A DNA stretch of 64,000 nucleotides, taken from assembly GCA_013289585.1 (NCBI GenBank), contig JABCZR010000003.1, forward strand, positions 248,001 through 312,000, read 5' to 3'. The stretch comes from Acidobacteriota bacterium (lineage in GTDB: Bacteria; Acidobacteriota; Terriglobia; Acidiferrales; UBA7541). This document shows, piece after piece, positions 32,416-40,001 of this stretch; position 1 is the first letter of the stretch, and every line of letters begins with the position of its first letter. The notes beneath the pieces were generated by a model. It was not told the DNA's origin. It ran no database searches and worked only from the letters and a program-made list of their open reading frames with translations. The translations under genes were made by a program, and so were the position numbers.

Positions 32416-33759
32416 CTAGGAATGCGACGGCAGCATCCGCATCACGTCATTGTACATAACGTAAGCGAATAGCACCAAAAGGAACACCAGTCCCACCTGG
32501 ACGAATCGTTCCTTGAACGCCAGGCTGAAATCACGGCGCCGAATTCCCTCGAGCGTAAGCAACAGAATATTTCCGCCGTCCAGGATGGGTATCGGAAGAA
32601 GATTGAGAATCCCCAGGTTTACACTGATCAAAACCATCATGGAAATAACCGCCAGCGGTCCTTTGCGCACCGCCTGCCCGGCAGCGCGCGAGATTCCTAC
32701 GACGCTTTGCAGTTGCTTTACGGAAACGCGCCCGCTGAACAACTTCCCCACGATCCCGATGGTGTCTTCAATTTTATCCAGAGTCACTTGTGCGGAGTAA
32801 CGCACCGTCTCGCCGAAACCCACGCGCCGGTAGGCCGTCTCCAGGTACGGAAGCACGCCGATCTGGTAGATTTTTTCACCCGTTTCCGTGGAAATTTGCT
32901 GCGGAACGATTTCGAGATGGACGGATCGGCCATTCCTGTCCACGTCCAGCGCCACCGGTTTGCCATCCGAGCCGCGCACGTTTTCAACGAACTGCGCCCA
33001 ATACTGAATTTTTTGGCCGTTGATCGCGGTAACCGTATCCCCATCTTTCAGCCCCGCGCGGTCCGCCGGTGAACCTGGTTCGATGAAATCGATGATCGGC
33101 CGCGTCGGCAAATACCCGAGTCCGGGCACGGTAGTATCCGGCAGCAAGGCGCTCTTGACGGGCAATTCAACATTGCGCCGGCCGTCCGCGCTCTCAACTT
33201 CCAGCTTCAGTGTCCCGCCTGGACCTGTTTGCCGAATCAGGCGCTCGGCCACGCTCCAGGTCGGATTGGCCGTGCCGTTGATGGAAACCACTTTGTCGCC
33301 CACGTGGATGGGTCCGGCTGCCGCATCTTGCTTGCCCACAAAACCCACGACTTCAACCGGCTTATCTTCGTATGCCGGATACGGGATCCCCACCGTCGTG
33401 ATGTACCCCGTTAGCAGTAGGATCGGAAACACAAGATTTACGGCCGGTCCCGCGAACGAAATCAGCGCGCGTTGCCAGCGGGGCTTGCTCATCAATTCAT
33501 CCGGCGCGCCCGTCGGAGCCACGTCGTTCGAATCGACTTCAGACAAGTCCTGACCCGCCATGCGCACATATCCGCCCAGCGGAATCGCGCTTATACGGTA
33601 GTCCGTCGGGCCACTCTTCCAGCCAAAAAGGCGCGGCCCAAAACCGATGGAAAAAACGTCCACGCGTACCTTAAAAAGGCGCGCCACGATAAAGTGGCCC
33701 CACTCGTGGATCATGATCATCAAGCCCAGCACCAGGGCCATTCCCACCAATAAACTCAT
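32416..33759 (-). CDS. rseP: Site-2 intramembrane metalloprotease RseP
   Basis: This is a 447-residue inner-membrane zinc protease. The first helix carries HEWGH (the HExxH active site), the last part carries the LLPIPILDGG motif with the third metal ligand, and two PDZ domains lie between (about 130-300, with PIHVGDKVVSINGT and GLKDGDTVTAINGQ). RseP cleaves anti-sigma factors and leftover signal peptides after site-1 cleavage. Its position after dxr and cdsA is the standard arrangement. The ATG at 33759 is followed directly by the first hydrophobic helix. Confidence 0.95.
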   Translation of the reverse strand: MSLLVGMALVLGLMIMIHEWGHFIVARLFKVRVDVFSIGFGPRLFGWKSGPTDYRISAIPLGGYVRMAGQDLSEVDSNDVAPTGAPDELMSKPRWQRALISFAGPAVNLVFPILLLTGYITTVGIPYPAYEDKPVEVVGFVGKQDAAAGPIHVGDKVVSINGTANPTWSVAERLIRQTGPGGTLKLEVESADGRRNVELPVKSALLPDTTVPGLGYLPTRPIIDFIEPGSPADRAGLKDGDTVTAINGQKIQYWAQFVENVRGSDGKPVALDVDRNGRSVHLEIVPQQISTETGEKIYQIGVLPYLETAYRRVGFGETVRYSAQVTLDKIEDTIGIVGKLFSGRVSVKQLQSVVGISRAAGQAVRKGPLAVISMMVLISVNLGILNLLPIPILDGGNILLLTLEGIRRRDFSLAFKERFVQVGLVFLLVLFAYVMYNDVMRMLPSHS

Positions 33760-33807
33760 ACGCTTTGCTTCTCCTGTTGGCCGCTTCGCGGCCGGTTACC
33801 TGCTCGA

Positions 33808-34998
33808 CTAAGACGCCGCGGCCGCAGTTACTGCGAGTTTGGCCACTTCTTCCCTTGCCATTCGACGTGCTTCCGCATCCGCCGTAAGCACATCCTCCAT
33901 CCGTTCGAATCGCACGCGCGGCGTTCGAACGAGCACGCGCTCAATCACTTCCGGAATACCCAGGAACGGCAGTTGCCGCTCCAGAAAAGCCGCCACCGCG
34001 ATTTCGTCGGCGGCGTTCAGCGCGCAGGGAAACGCGCCGCCCTTTTTCATTGCTTCACGCGCCAGACGCAGGCACGGAAACCGCCGAGCGGAAGCCTTCG
34101 CAAAATCCAAGCGCTTTAACCTGGTCCAGTCCAGAGCTAGATCATTAGATGCTAAACGCTCTGGATAGGTTAACGCATATTGGATGGGCATGCGCATATC
34201 CGTGGGGCCCAGTTGCGCTAAAACGGACCCATCGACAAACTCGACCATCGAATGGACCGTGGATTGTGGATGCACCACCACGTCAATCTGGTCCGGCCGC
34301 ACGCCGAAAAGCCACCGGGCCTCGATGATTTCGAAGCCCTTGTTCATCATTGTGGCGGAGTCTATCGTGATGCGGTTGCCCATGCGCCAGTTGGGATGCG
34401 CCAGCGCTTGTTCTGGAGTCGCGCTCGCGAGCGCGACGAGCGGCGTCTTTCGAAAGGGTCCGCCTGACGCCGTCAGCACCAGCCGGCGAATCTCTCCATG
34501 CGTTCCGCCGCGCAAACATTGATGAACGGCGTTGTGTTCACTGTCCACGGGCAGGAGCTCGCGTCCGGCCTTCTTCGCCGCGGCCATCACCAATTCGCCC
34601 GCGGCCACCAGCACTTCTTTGTTCGAAAGCGCGACCGTCTTTCCAAGCTTTACGGCTTCGTAAGTAGCTTCCAGCCCGACGACTCCAACCGCGGCCGAGA
34701 CGACGATGTCGGCTTTCGAATGCGTCCCCACCGCCAGCATTCCTTCGCGTCCATGGTGAATCGCCGGCAGCCTTGCGACACCCTTCTCCCGCAGCATCGC
34801 CACGAGTTCATCCACTCTGTTCGAATCGCCCACGGAAACGACTTCCGGCTTATGTTTCTTGATTTGTCCCGCGAGTTCCACCAGGTTCCCACCCGCTGCC
34901 AGCGCCACCACGCCGAACCGCCCCGCCAGGCTCTCCACCACGGAGAGACACTGCCGCCCAATCGATCCCGTAGATCCCAAGATGGCTAACTGTCTCAC
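33808..34998 (-). CDS. dxr: 1-deoxy-D-xylulose 5-phosphate reductoisomerase
   Basis: This enzyme makes 2-C-methyl-D-erythritol 4-phosphate, the first committed step of the non-mevalonate isoprenoid pathway, using NADPH. The product has 396 residues. It begins with the NADPH-binding AILGSTGSIGRQ and continues with SNKEVLVAAG, PVDSEHNA, TASGGPFR and the metal region VHPQSTVHSMVEF, all diagnostic. The start is a GTG at 34998 preceded by GAGG. The frame is open upstream to 35256, but that part is a hairpin repeat. It follows cdsA by 73 bp in an envelope and isoprenoid operon. Confidence 0.96.
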   Translation of the reverse strand: MRQLAILGSTGSIGRQCLSVVESLAGRFGVVALAAGGNLVELAGQIKKHKPEVVSVGDSNRVDELVAMLREKGVARLPAIHHGREGMLAVGTHSKADIVVSAAVGVVGLEATYEAVKLGKTVALSNKEVLVAAGELVMAAAKKAGRELLPVDSEHNAVHQCLRGGTHGEIRRLVLTASGGPFRKTPLVALASATPEQALAHPNWRMGNRITIDSATMMNKGFEIIEARWLFGVRPDQIDVVVHPQSTVHSMVEFVDGSVLAQLGPTDMRMPIQYALTYPERLASNDLALDWTRLKRLDFAKASARRFPCLRLAREAMKKGGAFPCALNAADEIAVAAFLERQLPFLGIPEVIERVLVRTPRVRFERMEDVLTADAEARRMAREEVAKLAVTAAAAS

Positions 34999-35040
34999 GA
35001 ATCCTCTAGCTGCGATTAGCTGCGATTTAAGATGACGGAA

Positions 35041-35065
35041 AAGCGGGAGCAAGCTCCCGCACTCC
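35041..35065. repeat. GCGGGAGC hairpin repeat (copy 2)
   Basis: GCGGGAGCAAGCTCCCGC is a perfect hairpin followed by ACTCC, situated in the 73-bp gap between cdsA and dxr. It could fold in the transcript and change relative expression of dxr. Confidence 0.65.
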
Positions 35066-35071
35066 ATAGCC

Positions 35072-35947
35072 CTACGACCGAGGAGAGTAGACCAACACCC
35101 AATAATACCAGACAACCGGAATCGCAAGGATAAGCGCATCGATTCGGTCAAGCACGCCGCCATGCCCCGGCAGCAGGCTCCCGGAATCCTTGATCCCCGC
35201 GCTGCGCTTGTACGCCGATTCCAGAAGATCGCCAACCTGACCCGCAACATTGCCAACTGCTGCCATGCCCAGCAGATGCGGAAGCGGCACGGTCATAAAC
35301 CGCGCAAAAATGACCGCCACGATCAGCGACCCCAGGAAACTCGCCCCTGTCCCTTCCCACGTTTTCTTGGGACTTAAATGTGGTGCTAGAGGATGTTTCC
35401 CGATGGAACGACCCACGAAATACGCCGCGCTGTCCCCCACCCATGTAATCACCAGCACAAACAGCAAAAGCACGGGCCCTTGGGCCCCAAGTCCGTGAAG
35501 CCGAATCGTGTAGGACAACGGAAAAGCAACCAGGATAAGAGCGCTGGCGCTTATCCCCGCAGCCGGAAGCGTTTCCACCAGCGGCCGCTTCGTAAAAAGC
35601 GTAATTGCCGCGATCCCCAGAACAAAAAGGAAAAACGCATCCTCAGCGCGCGGAAACATTCTAACCAGCAGCCACGCCAGCCGCGGAGGATATGCCACGC
35701 CGCCAAATTCGCCCCAGCGAATAACCGTCGTTAGCCACTGCAGATACAAGATCAGCAGCGCGCACGTGGCTGTCCAGAACCGGTATCCCCGATGGCCGAT
35801 GGCCTCGCCAAGTGCAAAGTATTCGAACAGCGCAAGGATTGTGACCAACGCCATTGCCAGCGCAACAATCGCCGTCGAGCCCCACAACACCAGGCCTACA
35901 GCAAAAGGAATCAGCACCGCGGCCGTTGCCACACGCTTCCACGTCAT
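35072..35947 (-). CDS. cdsA: Phosphatidate cytidylyltransferase
   Basis: This integral membrane enzyme makes CDP-diacylglycerol from phosphatidate and CTP, the branch point for all phospholipids. The 291-residue product has about eight transmembrane helices. The C-terminal signature is GDLLESAYKR followed by KDSGSLLPGHGGVLDRIDAL, which carries the metal-binding Asp residues. The ATG at 35947 is the natural start. It lies 99 bp behind uppS and 73 bp before dxr, the conserved gene order. Confidence 0.96.
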   Translation of the reverse strand: MTWKRVATAAVLIPFAVGLVLWGSTAIVALAMALVTILALFEYFALGEAIGHRGYRFWTATCALLILYLQWLTTVIRWGEFGGVAYPPRLAWLLVRMFPRAEDAFFLFVLGIAAITLFTKRPLVETLPAAGISASALILVAFPLSYTIRLHGLGAQGPVLLLFVLVITWVGDSAAYFVGRSIGKHPLAPHLSPKKTWEGTGASFLGSLIVAVIFARFMTVPLPHLLGMAAVGNVAGQVGDLLESAYKRSAGIKDSGSLLPGHGGVLDRIDALILAIPVVWYYWVLVYSPRS

Positions 35948-36046
35948 AGAGATGAAGTCCCCTGAGAAATCGCAGGCATCATCTCATCATATCGAGGGAA
36001 ATAAATCACGCGAGAGGTCGATGGAAGGAAGCGCAAAAGCGCGGAA

Positions 36047-36892
36047 TCAATGACCCGCTACACGCGCCGGCTTTTCGTCGGAAGGTTCCCCTTCGCGGAT
36101 CCCGCCGTACCGCCGCTCGCGCTTTTGAAACTCCAGCAAAGCTTCGAGGAGCCGCGCGCGGTTGAAGTCCGGCCAAAGCGTTTCGGTCACGAAAATCTCA
36201 GCGTAGGCGATCTGCCACAGCAGGAAGTTGCTCACGCGCATTTCGCCGCTCGTGCGGATCAAAAGGTCCGGGTCCGGCAAGCCGTCGGTGTACAAGTGCC
36301 GCGAAAGCTGCTCCTCGGTGACCCTATCCGATGTAGCGTGGCCATTGCGTTCTTCCAGAATCGCGTTCATGGCGTCGACAATCTCCGCGCGCCCGCCGTA
36401 ATTCAGCGCCACGCACAACACCATGCCCTTGTTTCCCGCGGTCTTCTCCATCGCGTCCCGCACGTCGTTTTGAACTCCCACGGGAAGTTCATTAATGCGG
36501 CCGAGAAAACGCATGCGAATATTATTTTTTTGGAGCAGGGGCATCTCTTTGCGCAGATACTCGCGCAGCAGTTGCATCAGGAAGTCGATCTCCGCCTTGG
36601 GCCGCCGCCAGTTCTCCACCGAGAACGCATAAAGCGTCAAGGCCTCGAGTTTCAAGCGCGCGCAAGTCTCGATCGTTGTTCGTGCCGACTGCGTTCCCGA
36701 GCGATGCCCGGCAATTCGCGGCAGGTGTCTCTTCTGCGCCCAGCGCCCGTTCCCGTCCATGATGACGGCCACGTGCCTCGGCAGCCGCGACAAGTCCAGC
36801 TTTTCGAGCAATTGCGATTCTTCCGCGGTCACCGGACCAAGCTCAACCGGCGCGGCGAGATGGAGAGTTTTGTGTGATTTATTGTGCAGCAC
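36047..36892 (-). CDS. uppS: Undecaprenyl diphosphate synthase (cis-prenyltransferase)
   Basis: This cytoplasmic enzyme makes C55 undecaprenyl diphosphate, the lipid carrier for peptidoglycan and other envelope glycans. The 281 residues include VIMDGNGRWAQKR with the catalytic Asp, the FSVENWRRP segment, and DLLIRTSGEMRVSNFLLWQ with the conserved Arg-x-Ser-Gly. All are textbook IspU/UppS motifs. The start is a GTG at 36892 because no ATG precedes the catalytic motif; it has no clear ribosome site and gives an N-terminal extension of about 40 residues. It opens the cdsA-dxr-rseP cluster. Confidence 0.95.
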   Translation of the reverse strand: MLHNKSHKTLHLAAPVELGPVTAEESQLLEKLDLSRLPRHVAVIMDGNGRWAQKRHLPRIAGHRSGTQSARTTIETCARLKLEALTLYAFSVENWRRPKAEIDFLMQLLREYLRKEMPLLQKNNIRMRFLGRINELPVGVQNDVRDAMEKTAGNKGMVLCVALNYGGRAEIVDAMNAILEERNGHATSDRVTEEQLSRHLYTDGLPDPDLLIRTSGEMRVSNFLLWQIAYAEIFVTETLWPDFNRARLLEALLEFQKRERRYGGIREGEPSDEKPARVAGH

Positions 36893-36986: not shown

Positions 36987-38309
36987 TCAGGGCGCAGGGG
37001 ATGTTCCAGGTTGGAAAAGAGCTGTGTAGGTCAGAACCAGCGTCAGAGCGATCATCGCGATGGCCGTAACCCAGGCCACGATATTAAACGTCAGCGTATT
37101 CACGTACTCGCCCATCAGGTCGCGGCGGTTCACCAGCAGCAAAATAAAGATCACTACCACCGGCAGCCAGATTCCATTGCCCACCTGCGAGAAAATCAAA
37201 ATCTTCCAAAGCGGTGCGTTGGGCAGCAGCACAATCCCCGCTCCAACGACAATCAGCACGGTATACAGCCAGTAAAAAATCGGCGCTTCCTTGAATTTAT
37301 TGTCGATCCCCGCCTCAAATCCAAGCCCTTCGCAAATCACATGAGCGGTCGAAAGCGGCAGGATCGAGGCCGCGAACAGCGAAGCGTTGAGCAGGCCGAA
37401 AGCAAACAGAATCCCCGCTCCTTTGCCCGCCAGAGGAATGAGCGCTTGGGCGGCTTGCGCCGCGTCGGTGATATCCCGGTGACCCGAGGTGTACAGCGTC
37501 GCTGCCGTGCAAACAATGATGAAAAACACGATCACCATGCAGCTCACGCTGCCGAAGAGCACGTCCGCGCGAGCTTTTGAGTATTGGCTCGGGCCCACTT
37601 TCTTTTCCACGAATCCCGCCTGGAGATAGAAAAATTGCCAAGGCGCAATCGTTGTTCCCACAAGGCCGGTAAGCATCAGCAGATAGCCCGAATCAAAACG
37701 AAGATTGGGAATCACCGTCTGTTTCGCGGCGATGAGCCAGTCCGGCTTCGCGAGAAACGCGGAAAAGACGTACGACAGGTAGAGCACACAGGCGAAAAGA
37801 AAAATGACCTCGACCTGCCTGTACGTTCCCCGCAGCACCAACACCCAGACCAGGATCGCCGCAATGGGCACCGCAATGTACTTGCTGACATGGAAAATCT
37901 GCATCGCGGCGGCCACGCCGGCGAACTCCGCCACTACGTTTGCCAGGTCCACAAAAAACCCCGTCACCATCACAAAAAAAGTTGATCGGAATCCGAATTC
38001 CTCCCGGATGAGATCGGAGAGCCCTTTCCCCGTCACCACGCCCATCCGCGCACACATCTCTTCCGTGACGTAGAGTGCAATCGTCATGGGAATCAGCGAC
38101 CACAGCAAGGCGTACCCATATTGCGCGCCCGCTTGTGTGTAGACGGAAATTCCGCCCGCGTCGTTGTCCACCTTGGAGGTGATCAGCCCCGGGCCCACCA
38201 CGGCCAGCAGCAGCGTCAGCCGCCGTCTAAGGCCACGGATTTTTTTCTGCAAATCCGTGTCGCCGGTCCGCACGCGCTCAAATCTCGTGGATATGGCTTT
38301 CCAGTTCAT
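36987..38309 (-). CDS. Nramp-related metal transporter lacking canonical metal motifs
   Basis: This is a 440-residue inner-membrane protein of the SLC11/Nramp superfamily with about 11 helices. In classical Nramps, helix 1 carries DPGN and helix 6 carries MPH, where the Met selects transition metals. Here helix 1 reads SKVDNDAGGISV (Asp48-Asn-Asp-Ala-Gly) and helix 6 reads TTIAPWQFFYLQ (Ala222-Pro-Trp). The changed site argues against ordinary Mn2+/Fe2+ uptake. The SLC11 family includes a Mg2+-transporting branch without that Met. The gene is 21 bp downstream of an MgtE-N/CBS protein, which supports Mg2+ or other hard-cation transport; this is inference. Confidence 0.85.
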   Translation of the reverse strand: MNWKAISTRFERVRTGDTDLQKKIRGLRRRLTLLLAVVGPGLITSKVDNDAGGISVYTQAGAQYGYALLWSLIPMTIALYVTEEMCARMGVVTGKGLSDLIREEFGFRSTFFVMVTGFFVDLANVVAEFAGVAAAMQIFHVSKYIAVPIAAILVWVLVLRGTYRQVEVIFLFACVLYLSYVFSAFLAKPDWLIAAKQTVIPNLRFDSGYLLMLTGLVGTTIAPWQFFYLQAGFVEKKVGPSQYSKARADVLFGSVSCMVIVFFIIVCTAATLYTSGHRDITDAAQAAQALIPLAGKGAGILFAFGLLNASLFAASILPLSTAHVICEGLGFEAGIDNKFKEAPIFYWLYTVLIVVGAGIVLLPNAPLWKILIFSQVGNGIWLPVVVIFILLLVNRRDLMGEYVNTLTFNIVAWVTAIAMIALTLVLTYTALFQPGTSPAP

Positions 38310-38330
38310 CGCTGCGCTTGCATCCCCTTC

Positions 38331-39572
38331 CTAATATTTCACGAGCCGCGAGACCACGTCGTCCACGGTGATCGCCCCGATGGGCTGATTCTCTTCGTTG
38401 ATCACCGTCAACATCCGCAAATTGTACTTGTCAAAAATCTCGAACACATCCTTGTCGTCCGCATTTGCCGGCAAGCTCAGCAGCGGTTCCATCTTCAACT
38501 CCGTCATGCGCTGATCCCCAGCCGCCAGCAGCAAGCGCGCCAGCGGCACCGTTCCCGAAAACTGCGCGGTGGCATCCAGCAATACGATGGTGTCGAGTTG
38601 ATCGAGGTTCAATTCCTGGCCGCGCATCCAGGCCAGCACTTCGTCCCGCGTGGATGCTTCGCCTACATACAAAAACTCGGGATTCATCATGCCGCCCGCC
38701 GTGGAAGCGTCGAACTCCAGAAGTTCCCGGACTTCATCGGCCTCCTGTCCAGGCATCTCGTCCAGCAATTCTTCGGACGTTTCCTTCGGCAGATCGGCCA
38801 GCAGGTCCGCGGCCGCGTCCGGCGCCATCTCTTCGAGAATATCCGCGGCCTTTTCCGGATCAAGTTTCTCGACGATCTGCGTGGTCAGCCGCTCATCCAA
38901 TTCCGCAAGCACGGCCGCCGCGGTCTCTTCATCCAGGGAAGCGATAATGCCCTGCCGCTCCGCCGCCGAGAGATCTTCCATGATTTCGGCCAGATCGGCT
39001 GGGTGTAGGTCTTCCAGTTTTTCGTGAGTGATCCGCAATTTCACGCGCCGCATGGGGTCCGGTTCAACGAGGTTCACGAACTCCCAGCGAATTGCGCGCT
39101 GCGGCAATTTGCTCTGCAGCTTTCGAACAAGCAAAGCCGGAACTACTCCCTGGAGCAGCCGCCGCACCGCCCCGGGCAGTCCCACGTCCACCTGCGTCAG
39201 CCGCAGCTCGGTATTCCCGTTCCAGCGGAACTCCGTCAGGTCAACATCGTTTACCCGCACTACTTTCCGCCCCCGCGTATCAATGATCTGCTGATCCAGC
39301 AAATCCTTCTGCACCGCAAGCCACGACTCGTTCGGCCGGTAGAGCTCCAGTGCCCGCTCGCTTACGTTCAGCTTCATGTTCCCCGCGGACACCGACGCGA
39401 TCTGGTCGTGTTTTGCCACGAGCGGCTGGTAGCTTCCGCGCGACAGCAGGTAGTGCGAGACCCGGTTTGGCGCTTCCGCCGGTTCAATAAAGAACTCGCG
39501 AACGCGCCCCACAAAATTTCCTTCGGAGTCATACGTCTTTGATCCCATCAATTCCGTTGCGTAAATTTCCAT
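38331..39572 (-). CDS. Soluble PRC-barrel / MgtE-N / CBS regulatory protein
   Basis: This is a 413-residue protein with no transmembrane segment. Residues 1-75 form a PRC-barrel (ATELMGSKTYDSEGNFVGRV), about 85-145 a second barrel-like segment, about 185-290 an MgtE-N helical repeat domain (LHPADLAEIMEDL, LDEETAAAVLAEL), and about 293-413 a pair of CBS domains (STAGGMMNPEF, RMLTVINEENQPIGAITVDD). MgtE channels use such MgtE-N/CBS units as a cytosolic Mg2+ sensor that closes the pore, but the MgtE membrane domain is absent here. The adjacent Nramp-like gene probably supplies the transporter. The ATG at 39572 is chosen because PRC homology starts there. Confidence 0.85.
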   Translation of the reverse strand: MEIYATELMGSKTYDSEGNFVGRVREFFIEPAEAPNRVSHYLLSRGSYQPLVAKHDQIASVSAGNMKLNVSERALELYRPNESWLAVQKDLLDQQIIDTRGRKVVRVNDVDLTEFRWNGNTELRLTQVDVGLPGAVRRLLQGVVPALLVRKLQSKLPQRAIRWEFVNLVEPDPMRRVKLRITHEKLEDLHPADLAEIMEDLSAAERQGIIASLDEETAAAVLAELDERLTTQIVEKLDPEKAADILEEMAPDAAADLLADLPKETSEELLDEMPGQEADEVRELLEFDASTAGGMMNPEFLYVGEASTRDEVLAWMRGQELNLDQLDTIVLLDATAQFSGTVPLARLLLAAGDQRMTELKMEPLLSLPANADDKDVFEIFDKYNLRMLTVINEENQPIGAITVDDVVSRLVKY

Positions 39573-40001
39573 GTCGTTCACCCTGCTCTGCAGTTCCGTC
39601 TCAGCCACTTTCCGTCGCAATCCGGTTCCTGACCCTGGTTCCCCGGGCAACAAAAAACCCGCGTACCGTTCCACCTCGGCCGCGGGCAAGTGCCTCACAC
39701 AAATGGACTTACCGTTAGCCGCCGCTGAGCCCTCCCCACCCGACTGCCCGGACCAGCGCTTGCGCCCCGTGCGACTTCAATTGGGAACCCATCCGATGGA
39801 CCCACTGCCTTCTGGACCAACTAGGGCCAGGTTCGAGTTCGCTGCGCGCACTCATCGAGAGAGAATTCACTCCATTACCGCCAACCGCGTTCGGCGACAC
39901 AAATGAATCGCCAATTGCAGTCACAGCTGAATTCATAAGCCGCGACCGCCGCATTGTCAACAAAGAAATGGCTTTGAATGGAAATTTTTTTATAACAGAG
40001 A
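39573..40001. other. Intergenic region, no gene seen
   Basis: These 429 bp lie between the CYTH gene and the MgtE-N/CBS gene (both minus). The promoter of the metal-transport pair should lie here. I see no convincing hairpin-plus-T terminator, repeat of the dispersed families, or coding frame with sensible composition. Confidence 0.4.

Follow-up and report, generated by a model that had tools for sequence, protein, structure and literature searches.

How is cation uptake adjusted to supply when the regulatory half of MgtE occurs without a pore, as a soluble protein encoded next to a transporter of the SLC11 family? This question is raised by a locus in the stretch of DNA analysed here (the window, 64,000 nucleotides from the genome of a soil acidobacterium). 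Previous work by Shin et al. in 2014 named such transporters NrmT, noted that most members adjoin a gene resembling the MgtE N-domain, and suggested that the MgtE-like protein acts in feedback regulation or as a chaperone (PMC4072509). The pair from Acidobacterium capsulatum, which carries no Mg2+ riboswitch, was tested in B. subtilis, giving full Mn2+ rescue and Mg2+ rescue only at low millimolar Mg2+; addition of the partner changed nothing, and its role has been left open since 2014 (PMC4072509). The same two genes stand side by side in the window, and since that earlier paper already covers both the gene arrangement and the idea of feedback, the corresponding proposal in the initial annotation of the window was an independent rediscovery. 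What is new is the leader attenuator preceding the operon, apparently unreported in the literature we searched. Together, our data make it reasonably probable that the locus is a two-gene Mg2+ uptake operon, combining feedback of the partner on the transporter with ribosome-mediated attenuation in the leader.

Both genes lie on the minus strand, with the soluble partner (38331..39572, 413 aa, ATG start) upstream of the transporter gene nrmT (36987..38309, 440 aa) and separated from it by an intergenic gap of 21 bp, exactly as initially annotated. On the same strand, 3' of the transporter (32416-36892), uppS-, cdsA-, dxr- and rseP-like genes were recognised by eye from their translations. The transporter scores 313.6 bits against the Pfam Nramp family, and its best solved relative is EleNRMT (PDB 7qia; E 3e-99), followed by MntH-type Nramps at 5e-35 or weaker. 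It clusters with EleNRMT in a phylogenetic tree, and by these comparisons it is a member of the known NRMT/NrmT clade of SLC11.

Alignment with EleNRMT and canonical Nramps placed the ion-site motifs DNDAGG in helix 1 (residues 48-53; 38151..38168, minus strand) and GTTIAPW in helix 6 (residues 218-224; 37638..37658, minus strand). DAGG and TTIA fit the DxxG–TxxA/T consensus given for NRMTs in the portion of the EleNRMT report drawn on here (PMC8806188), while the DPGN (helix 1) and MPH (helix 6) of canonical Nramp/MntH proteins are replaced by DAGG and APW. The motifs DNDAGG and APW are therefore present as first noted but, being the normal NRMT site, they do not constitute the anomaly for which they had been taken. 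The same portion of that report demonstrates transport of Mg2+ as well as Mn2+ by EleNRMT, which shares both clade and DxxG-TxxA ion site with the window transporter; it does not discuss a partner protein (PMC8806188), and the window transporter differs further in being known from sequence alone. Three partnered NRMTs at other loci (L060, L061, L063) have NNEAGG in helix 1, with the ion-site Asp replaced by Glu.

The partner comprises tandem PRC-like barrels, a MgtE_N domain and a CBS pair, with no membrane part. Pfam matches cover residues 2-32 (PRC), 189-288 (MgtE_N) and 361-411 (CBS), the latter being the second CBS repeat, the only one above the cut-off; the first repeat is backed by an alignment to the whole MgtE cytosolic domain and by the superposition of our AlphaFold model on 2yvy. 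The alignment between the partner and the cytosolic half of MgtE from Thermus spans about 230 residues, and Foldseek superposes the model on the Mg2+-bound form 2yvy with a TM-score of 0.85 by target length and an rmsd of 2.3 Å. All the domains listed in the initial annotation could thus be recovered, except that the N-terminal part probably contains two PRC-like barrels rather than one, as indicated by model strands at residues 2-68 and 95-129 and by a PRC match at residues 111-173 of a relative (L098). The second of these, PRC2 (residues 83-170; 39063..39326, minus strand), is the most conserved part of the protein, with invariant residues D98, D109, R137 and W163, and both conservation and the model mark it as a candidate docking surface.

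Using a TtMgtE numbering validated on ten published residues, we compared the Mg2+-binding positions of MgtE across 91 partners. Residues D252 and D256 (codons within 38805..38819, minus strand) correspond to TtMgtE D91 (Mg4) and D95 (Mg6) and are kept in 76 and 88 of the 91, and D405 (38358..38360, minus strand), corresponding to D247 (Mg4), is kept in 79. The Mg5 site is lost (TtMgtE D226 and D250 are N384 and S408), the Mg7 glutamate E59 is A220 in the window partner, the ATP-site residues of MgtE are replaced (T328, A345, R346, L385), and the chain stops where the plug helix would start. Partners in Clostridia and Deltaproteobacteria, and those accompanying the more distant carriers described below, retain more of the ATP site. 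The partner thus resembles the MgtE cytosolic domain (2yvy; PMC5529423, PMC5882242) in its MgtE_N and CBS fold and its Mg4/Mg6 Asp residues, and differs from MgtE in lacking the pore, plug helix, Mg5 and ATP-site residues and in having added N-terminal PRC-like barrels. The loss of the plug helix, Mg5 and ATP site makes the MgtE plug mechanism impossible as a mode of gating here, and the MgtE regulatory unit whose recruitment as a separate subunit had been suggested is only partly intact, with its Mg4/Mg6 aspartates kept.

Among 80 related loci from a single genome scan, 75 carry a homologue of the partner upstream of the transporter and in the same orientation, an adjacency that is not due to chance and that bears out the conservation anticipated when the pair was first annotated. 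The gap between the paired genes is mostly below 100 bp, and stop and start overlap in several of the 80 loci. Among 119 Acidobacteriota genomes, a clear NRMT (>370 bits) is present in 26, all 26 of which also encode a pore-less MgtE_N protein. Orphan MgtE_N genes occur in only nine further genomes, each with a more distant NRMT-like carrier (NRMT2), and in none of the 119 without any NRMT-like carrier. A full MgtE pore was found in 3/26 NRMT genomes versus 68/93 others, and 12/26 versus 5/93 had neither CorA nor MgtE (these 119 genomes share ancestry, and Fisher p-values on the co-occurrence overstate certainty). Complete co-occurrence, even where the genes are unlinked, together with the scarcity of full MgtE in these genomes, makes a functional tie between NRMT and orphan MgtE_N much firmer.

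The NRMT2 clade (L093-L098, for example L095:1620-4482) is more distant (~36% identity) but has the same DNDAGG/TTI(A/T)PW site, forms the sister group of the NRMT clade in our tree, and shows a reversed gene order, in which the carrier comes first and the PRC-MgtE_N-CBS gene follows. In several Acidobacteriaceae (G055, G065, G074, G107 and others; L102-L104), carrier and MgtE_N gene are unlinked, lying on different contigs or far apart, with both retained. We also looked for a natural NRMT–MgtE_N fusion, and the long frames inspected in our phylum searches proved to be separate genes (L093, L099) or an Nramp–Usp fusion (L100). The latter (L100:665-2539, minus strand) joins an Nramp to a C-terminal universal-stress-protein domain and is a third gene beside an NRMT-partner pair; several Nramp open frames of ~640-655 aa in the phylum search may be Nramp–Usp fusions too.

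For a structural view of the pair, we predicted both window genes as one tethered chain, with translation continued past the TAG stop and across the seven in-frame intergenic codons. The tethered chain reached a pTM of 0.66, whereas the partner by itself gave 0.49. The confidence (pLDDT) of partner residues 111-160 rose from ~81 to ~92 once the transporter was included, despite fewer partner sequences in the tethered alignment, though tethering may itself bias the model. The gain within PRC2 is a hint that this segment meets the transporter, and a physical complex, which the initial annotation had suggested predicting, is only hinted at by the model. We propose that the NRMT ion site accepts Mg2+ in hydrated form (as well as Mn2+), and that the PRC region of the partner probably docks on the transporter from the cytoplasmic side. 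At high cytosolic Mg2+, MgtE_N and CBS domains would clamp via the retained Mg4/Mg6 Asp residues, holding the carrier back; this braking would be allosteric or steric, without a plug helix and unlike the MgtE plug.

Alternatively, the partner might buffer Mg2+ by binding it, act as a chaperone or regulate another protein, and be inherited together with the carrier through a shared role in Mg2+ homeostasis. Shin et al. also suggested a chaperone, the partner had no effect on rescue in their assay (PMC4072509), the genes are unlinked in several Acidobacteriaceae, and the helix that gates MgtE is missing. We nevertheless consider such a role rather unlikely, given the 26/26 co-occurrence, the constant company of an NRMT-like carrier wherever an orphan MgtE_N is found among the 119 genomes, the maintenance of the pairing despite differing gene order in the two carrier clades, and the higher pLDDT of PRC2 when the transporter is modelled alongside it.

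In addition to feedback on the transporter, the operon would be under a second layer of control, for which the region upstream of the partner gene provides candidates. Alignment of the upstream regions of close relatives revealed a conserved promoter-like element (TTGACA, 17 nt, TATGAAT; 39931..39960, all leader elements being on the minus strand). It is followed by an upstream open reading frame (uORF; 39715..39855) for a putative leader peptide of 46 aa, MSARSELEPGPSWSRRQWVHRMGSQLKSHGAQALVRAVGWGGLSGG, whose N- and C-terminal blocks, reading frame and stop codon are conserved. The peptide starts with MSARSELEPGP, containing the early acidic and proline residues E6, E8-P9 and P11. Just past the uORF stop, fold and conservation indicate an antiterminator-like hairpin made of GGTAAGT...ACTTGCC and the next bases (39682..39713), which overlaps an intrinsic terminator, GCCCGCGGCCGAGG...CGGTACGCGGG-TTTTTT (39652..39687), recognised by its fold (-18.8 kcal/mol) and its conserved spacing to the uORF stop. 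The GGTAAGT–ACTTGCC pairing would occupy the foot of the 5' arm of the terminator, whose U-run lies 57 nt from the uORF end. A generic promoter/terminator scan detected neither signal, a consequence of its hexamer and loop rules, and neither the M-box (RF00380) nor any other Rfam family matched over its gathering score in the window; two sub-threshold Rfam matches near the operon were dismissed as chance.

The uORF is conserved well beyond the window. A strict [ED]x[ED]PxP motif soon after the start is found in 29 of 63 related loci versus 0.025 in dinucleotide shuffles. Including near variants, 32 loci have an acidic residue 6 in 31 cases, Glu at residue 8 in 29 and Pro at residue 9 in 31, counts that are partly circular because the motif helped to pick those sequences. 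A second sub-family (ME..SSNSEPG...REARPGL) was found by similarity alone, with the motif unused. Counting both sub-families, 50 of the 63 loci have the uORF, mostly with an acidic-Pro pair at residues 8-10. The terminator U-run starts 40-60 nt (mostly 50-58) past the uORF stop in 45 of these 50, while uORF length varies between 45 and 72 codons and the distance from uORF to partner between 89 and 368 nt. TAA, TAG and TGA are all used as the stop beside GGYAAGT, and the conserved N- and C-terminal blocks hold one frame across several lengths around hypervariable middle codons, which show no coding constraint. The C-terminus (39718-39747, minus strand) is also conserved, as GWGGF.GG in one sub-family and REARPGL in the other.

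These elements are specific to the operon. When whole genomes of the family, 61 in number, were searched with a DNA pattern describing the uORF N-terminus, 15 matches in four genera were obtained, all 15 upstream of a partner gene, versus two matches for the reversed control. A covariance model of the 3' part of the leader detected a single copy per genome in 12 genomes; these all belong to the window's genus, and every copy precedes a partner gene. Across loci the hairpin pairing is retained as GGTAAGT/ACTTGCC, GGCAAGT/ACTTGCC or GGTAAGT/GCTTACC, whereas members of the second sub-family tend to have a GGGC/GCCC pairing at this position. As the antiterminator helix is invariant in the close set and covariation in the terminator is weak, our case for the leader is built on its spacing, its reading frame and its specificity for the operon. 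No leader was found outside the window's family, in a search upstream of the partner and transporter genes in Acidobacteriaceae, NRMT2 loci, Clostridia and Deltaproteobacteria.

Previous studies have shown that early acidic and proline codons cause ribosomes to drop off at low Mg2+, by which the leader peptide MgtL (EPDP) switches on mgtA, and that early acidic codons in MgtQ serve the control of mgtB (PMC11282234, PMC8092293). The window shares with these systems a short uORF in front of a Mg2+ transporter gene with acidic residues (acidic-Pro in MgtL) in the first codons, whereas its uORF type, 45-72 codons long, is unrelated in sequence and belongs to another phylum and transporter. Descent from MgtL is not indicated: the leader has an intrinsic terminator with a U-run and the nrmT operon downstream, in contrast to the Rho-dependent terminator of mgtA. 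By analogy, when Mg2+ is ample, ribosomes would finish the leader peptide, stop beside GGTAAGT and mask it, so that no antiterminator forms and transcription terminates. At low Mg2+, ribosomes would drop off at the early E-x-E-P-x-P stretch, allowing the antiterminator to form and the operon to be transcribed. Since completion of the uORF would mask GGTAAGT and early ribosome loss would free it, the predicted sense is ON at low Mg2+, and the leader peptide and terminator probably switch the operon in this way. We infer Mg2+ as the leader signal, and with it the direction of regulation.

On balance, we favour a scenario in which acidobacteria of this family independently evolved a Mg2+-sensing leader, a rapidly evolving uORF in which only an early acidic-Pro stretch stays fixed and, by destabilising ribosomes at low Mg2+, overrides an intrinsic terminator before nrmT, MgtL-like by convergence and placed atop protein feedback by a detached sensor. 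What can be read directly from the DNA is the pair with its conservation and co-occurrence, the transporter family, the residues kept and lost, and the spacing of uORF and terminator. Counting against the joint reading are the A. capsulatum result, the losses of Mg5, the ATP site, the plug helix and the Mg7 Glu, the scant variation and covariation in the leader helices, the confinement of the leader to the window's family, and the CorC/CNNM protein of the genome described below.

The uORF could instead sense another signal, such as amino-acid supply or a ligand arresting the nascent chain, or merely promote translation by reinitiation. The likewise conserved C-terminal blocks GWGGF.GG and REARPGL could carry such a signal, but the acidic-Pro pair at residues 8-10 is common to sub-families with differing C-termini and RNA, the leader stands solely before the NRMT operon, and its acidic-Pro start matches MgtL. 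Reinitiation is a poor fit, since 89-368 nt, including a terminator, separate the uORF stop from the partner gene. We therefore regard these options, taken together, as improbable compared with a Mg2+-sensing leader.

Mg2+ as a substrate agrees with the transporter inventory of the window's genome (97% complete), in which a genome-wide search found no CorA, no MgtE pore (PF01769) and no ATPase up to the MgtA-type cut-off. One CorC/CNNM protein could move Mg2+, and the genome also encodes a canonical Nramp at another locus (helix 1 DPGN, helix 6 MP), which implies a different route for Mn2+ uptake. In Pelotomaculum and relatives, the homologous pairs (L068, L072, L075) are preceded by an M-box, a cis-control at the same place that in the window is replaced by uORF and terminator. 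The window's operon thus differs from published NrmT pairs in having a leader attenuator, where those of Clostridia have an M-box and that of A. capsulatum no riboswitch (PMC4072509), and in residing in a genome that retains no CorA or MgtE. The missing CorA, MgtE and MgtA-type ATPase, the separate canonical Nramp and the M-boxes before homologous pairs lead us to favour Mg2+ in vivo, contrary to the reading of the A. capsulatum test. We infer Mg2+ as the in vivo substrate, and the transporter is probably the main dedicated Mg2+ importer of this genome. The magnesium role initially proposed is hence well backed by co-occurrence, absent CorA/MgtE and M-boxes, and set against a published acidobacterial pair that favoured Mn2+ and whose partner had no effect. 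A main role of the pair in the uptake of Mn2+, with the MgtE-like partner sensing Mn2+ or the general level of divalent cations, would accord with the full rescue of a Mn2+-transport mutant by A. capsulatum NrmT, next to Mg2+ rescue at low millimolar Mg2+ only (PMC4072509), and with the Mn2+ transport of EleNRMT alongside Mg2+ in the cited part of its description (PMC8806188), yet we hold it to be the least likely of the alternatives, in view of the genome's transporter set, the replacement of full MgtE by NRMT across the phylum, the Mg2+ riboswitches before homologous pairs, the resemblance of the leader to Mg2+-sensing leaders and the NRMT-type ion site.

The leader offers a direct handle on what acidobacterial NRMTs really transport, a question left ambiguous by the sole heterologous test, and allows it to be tested cleanly. 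A 2010 survey assigned almost no attenuators in the Acidobacteria; if our reading is true, it would provide a function for one in this phylum, and would point to repeated evolution of Mg2+ sensing through destabilised ribosomes.
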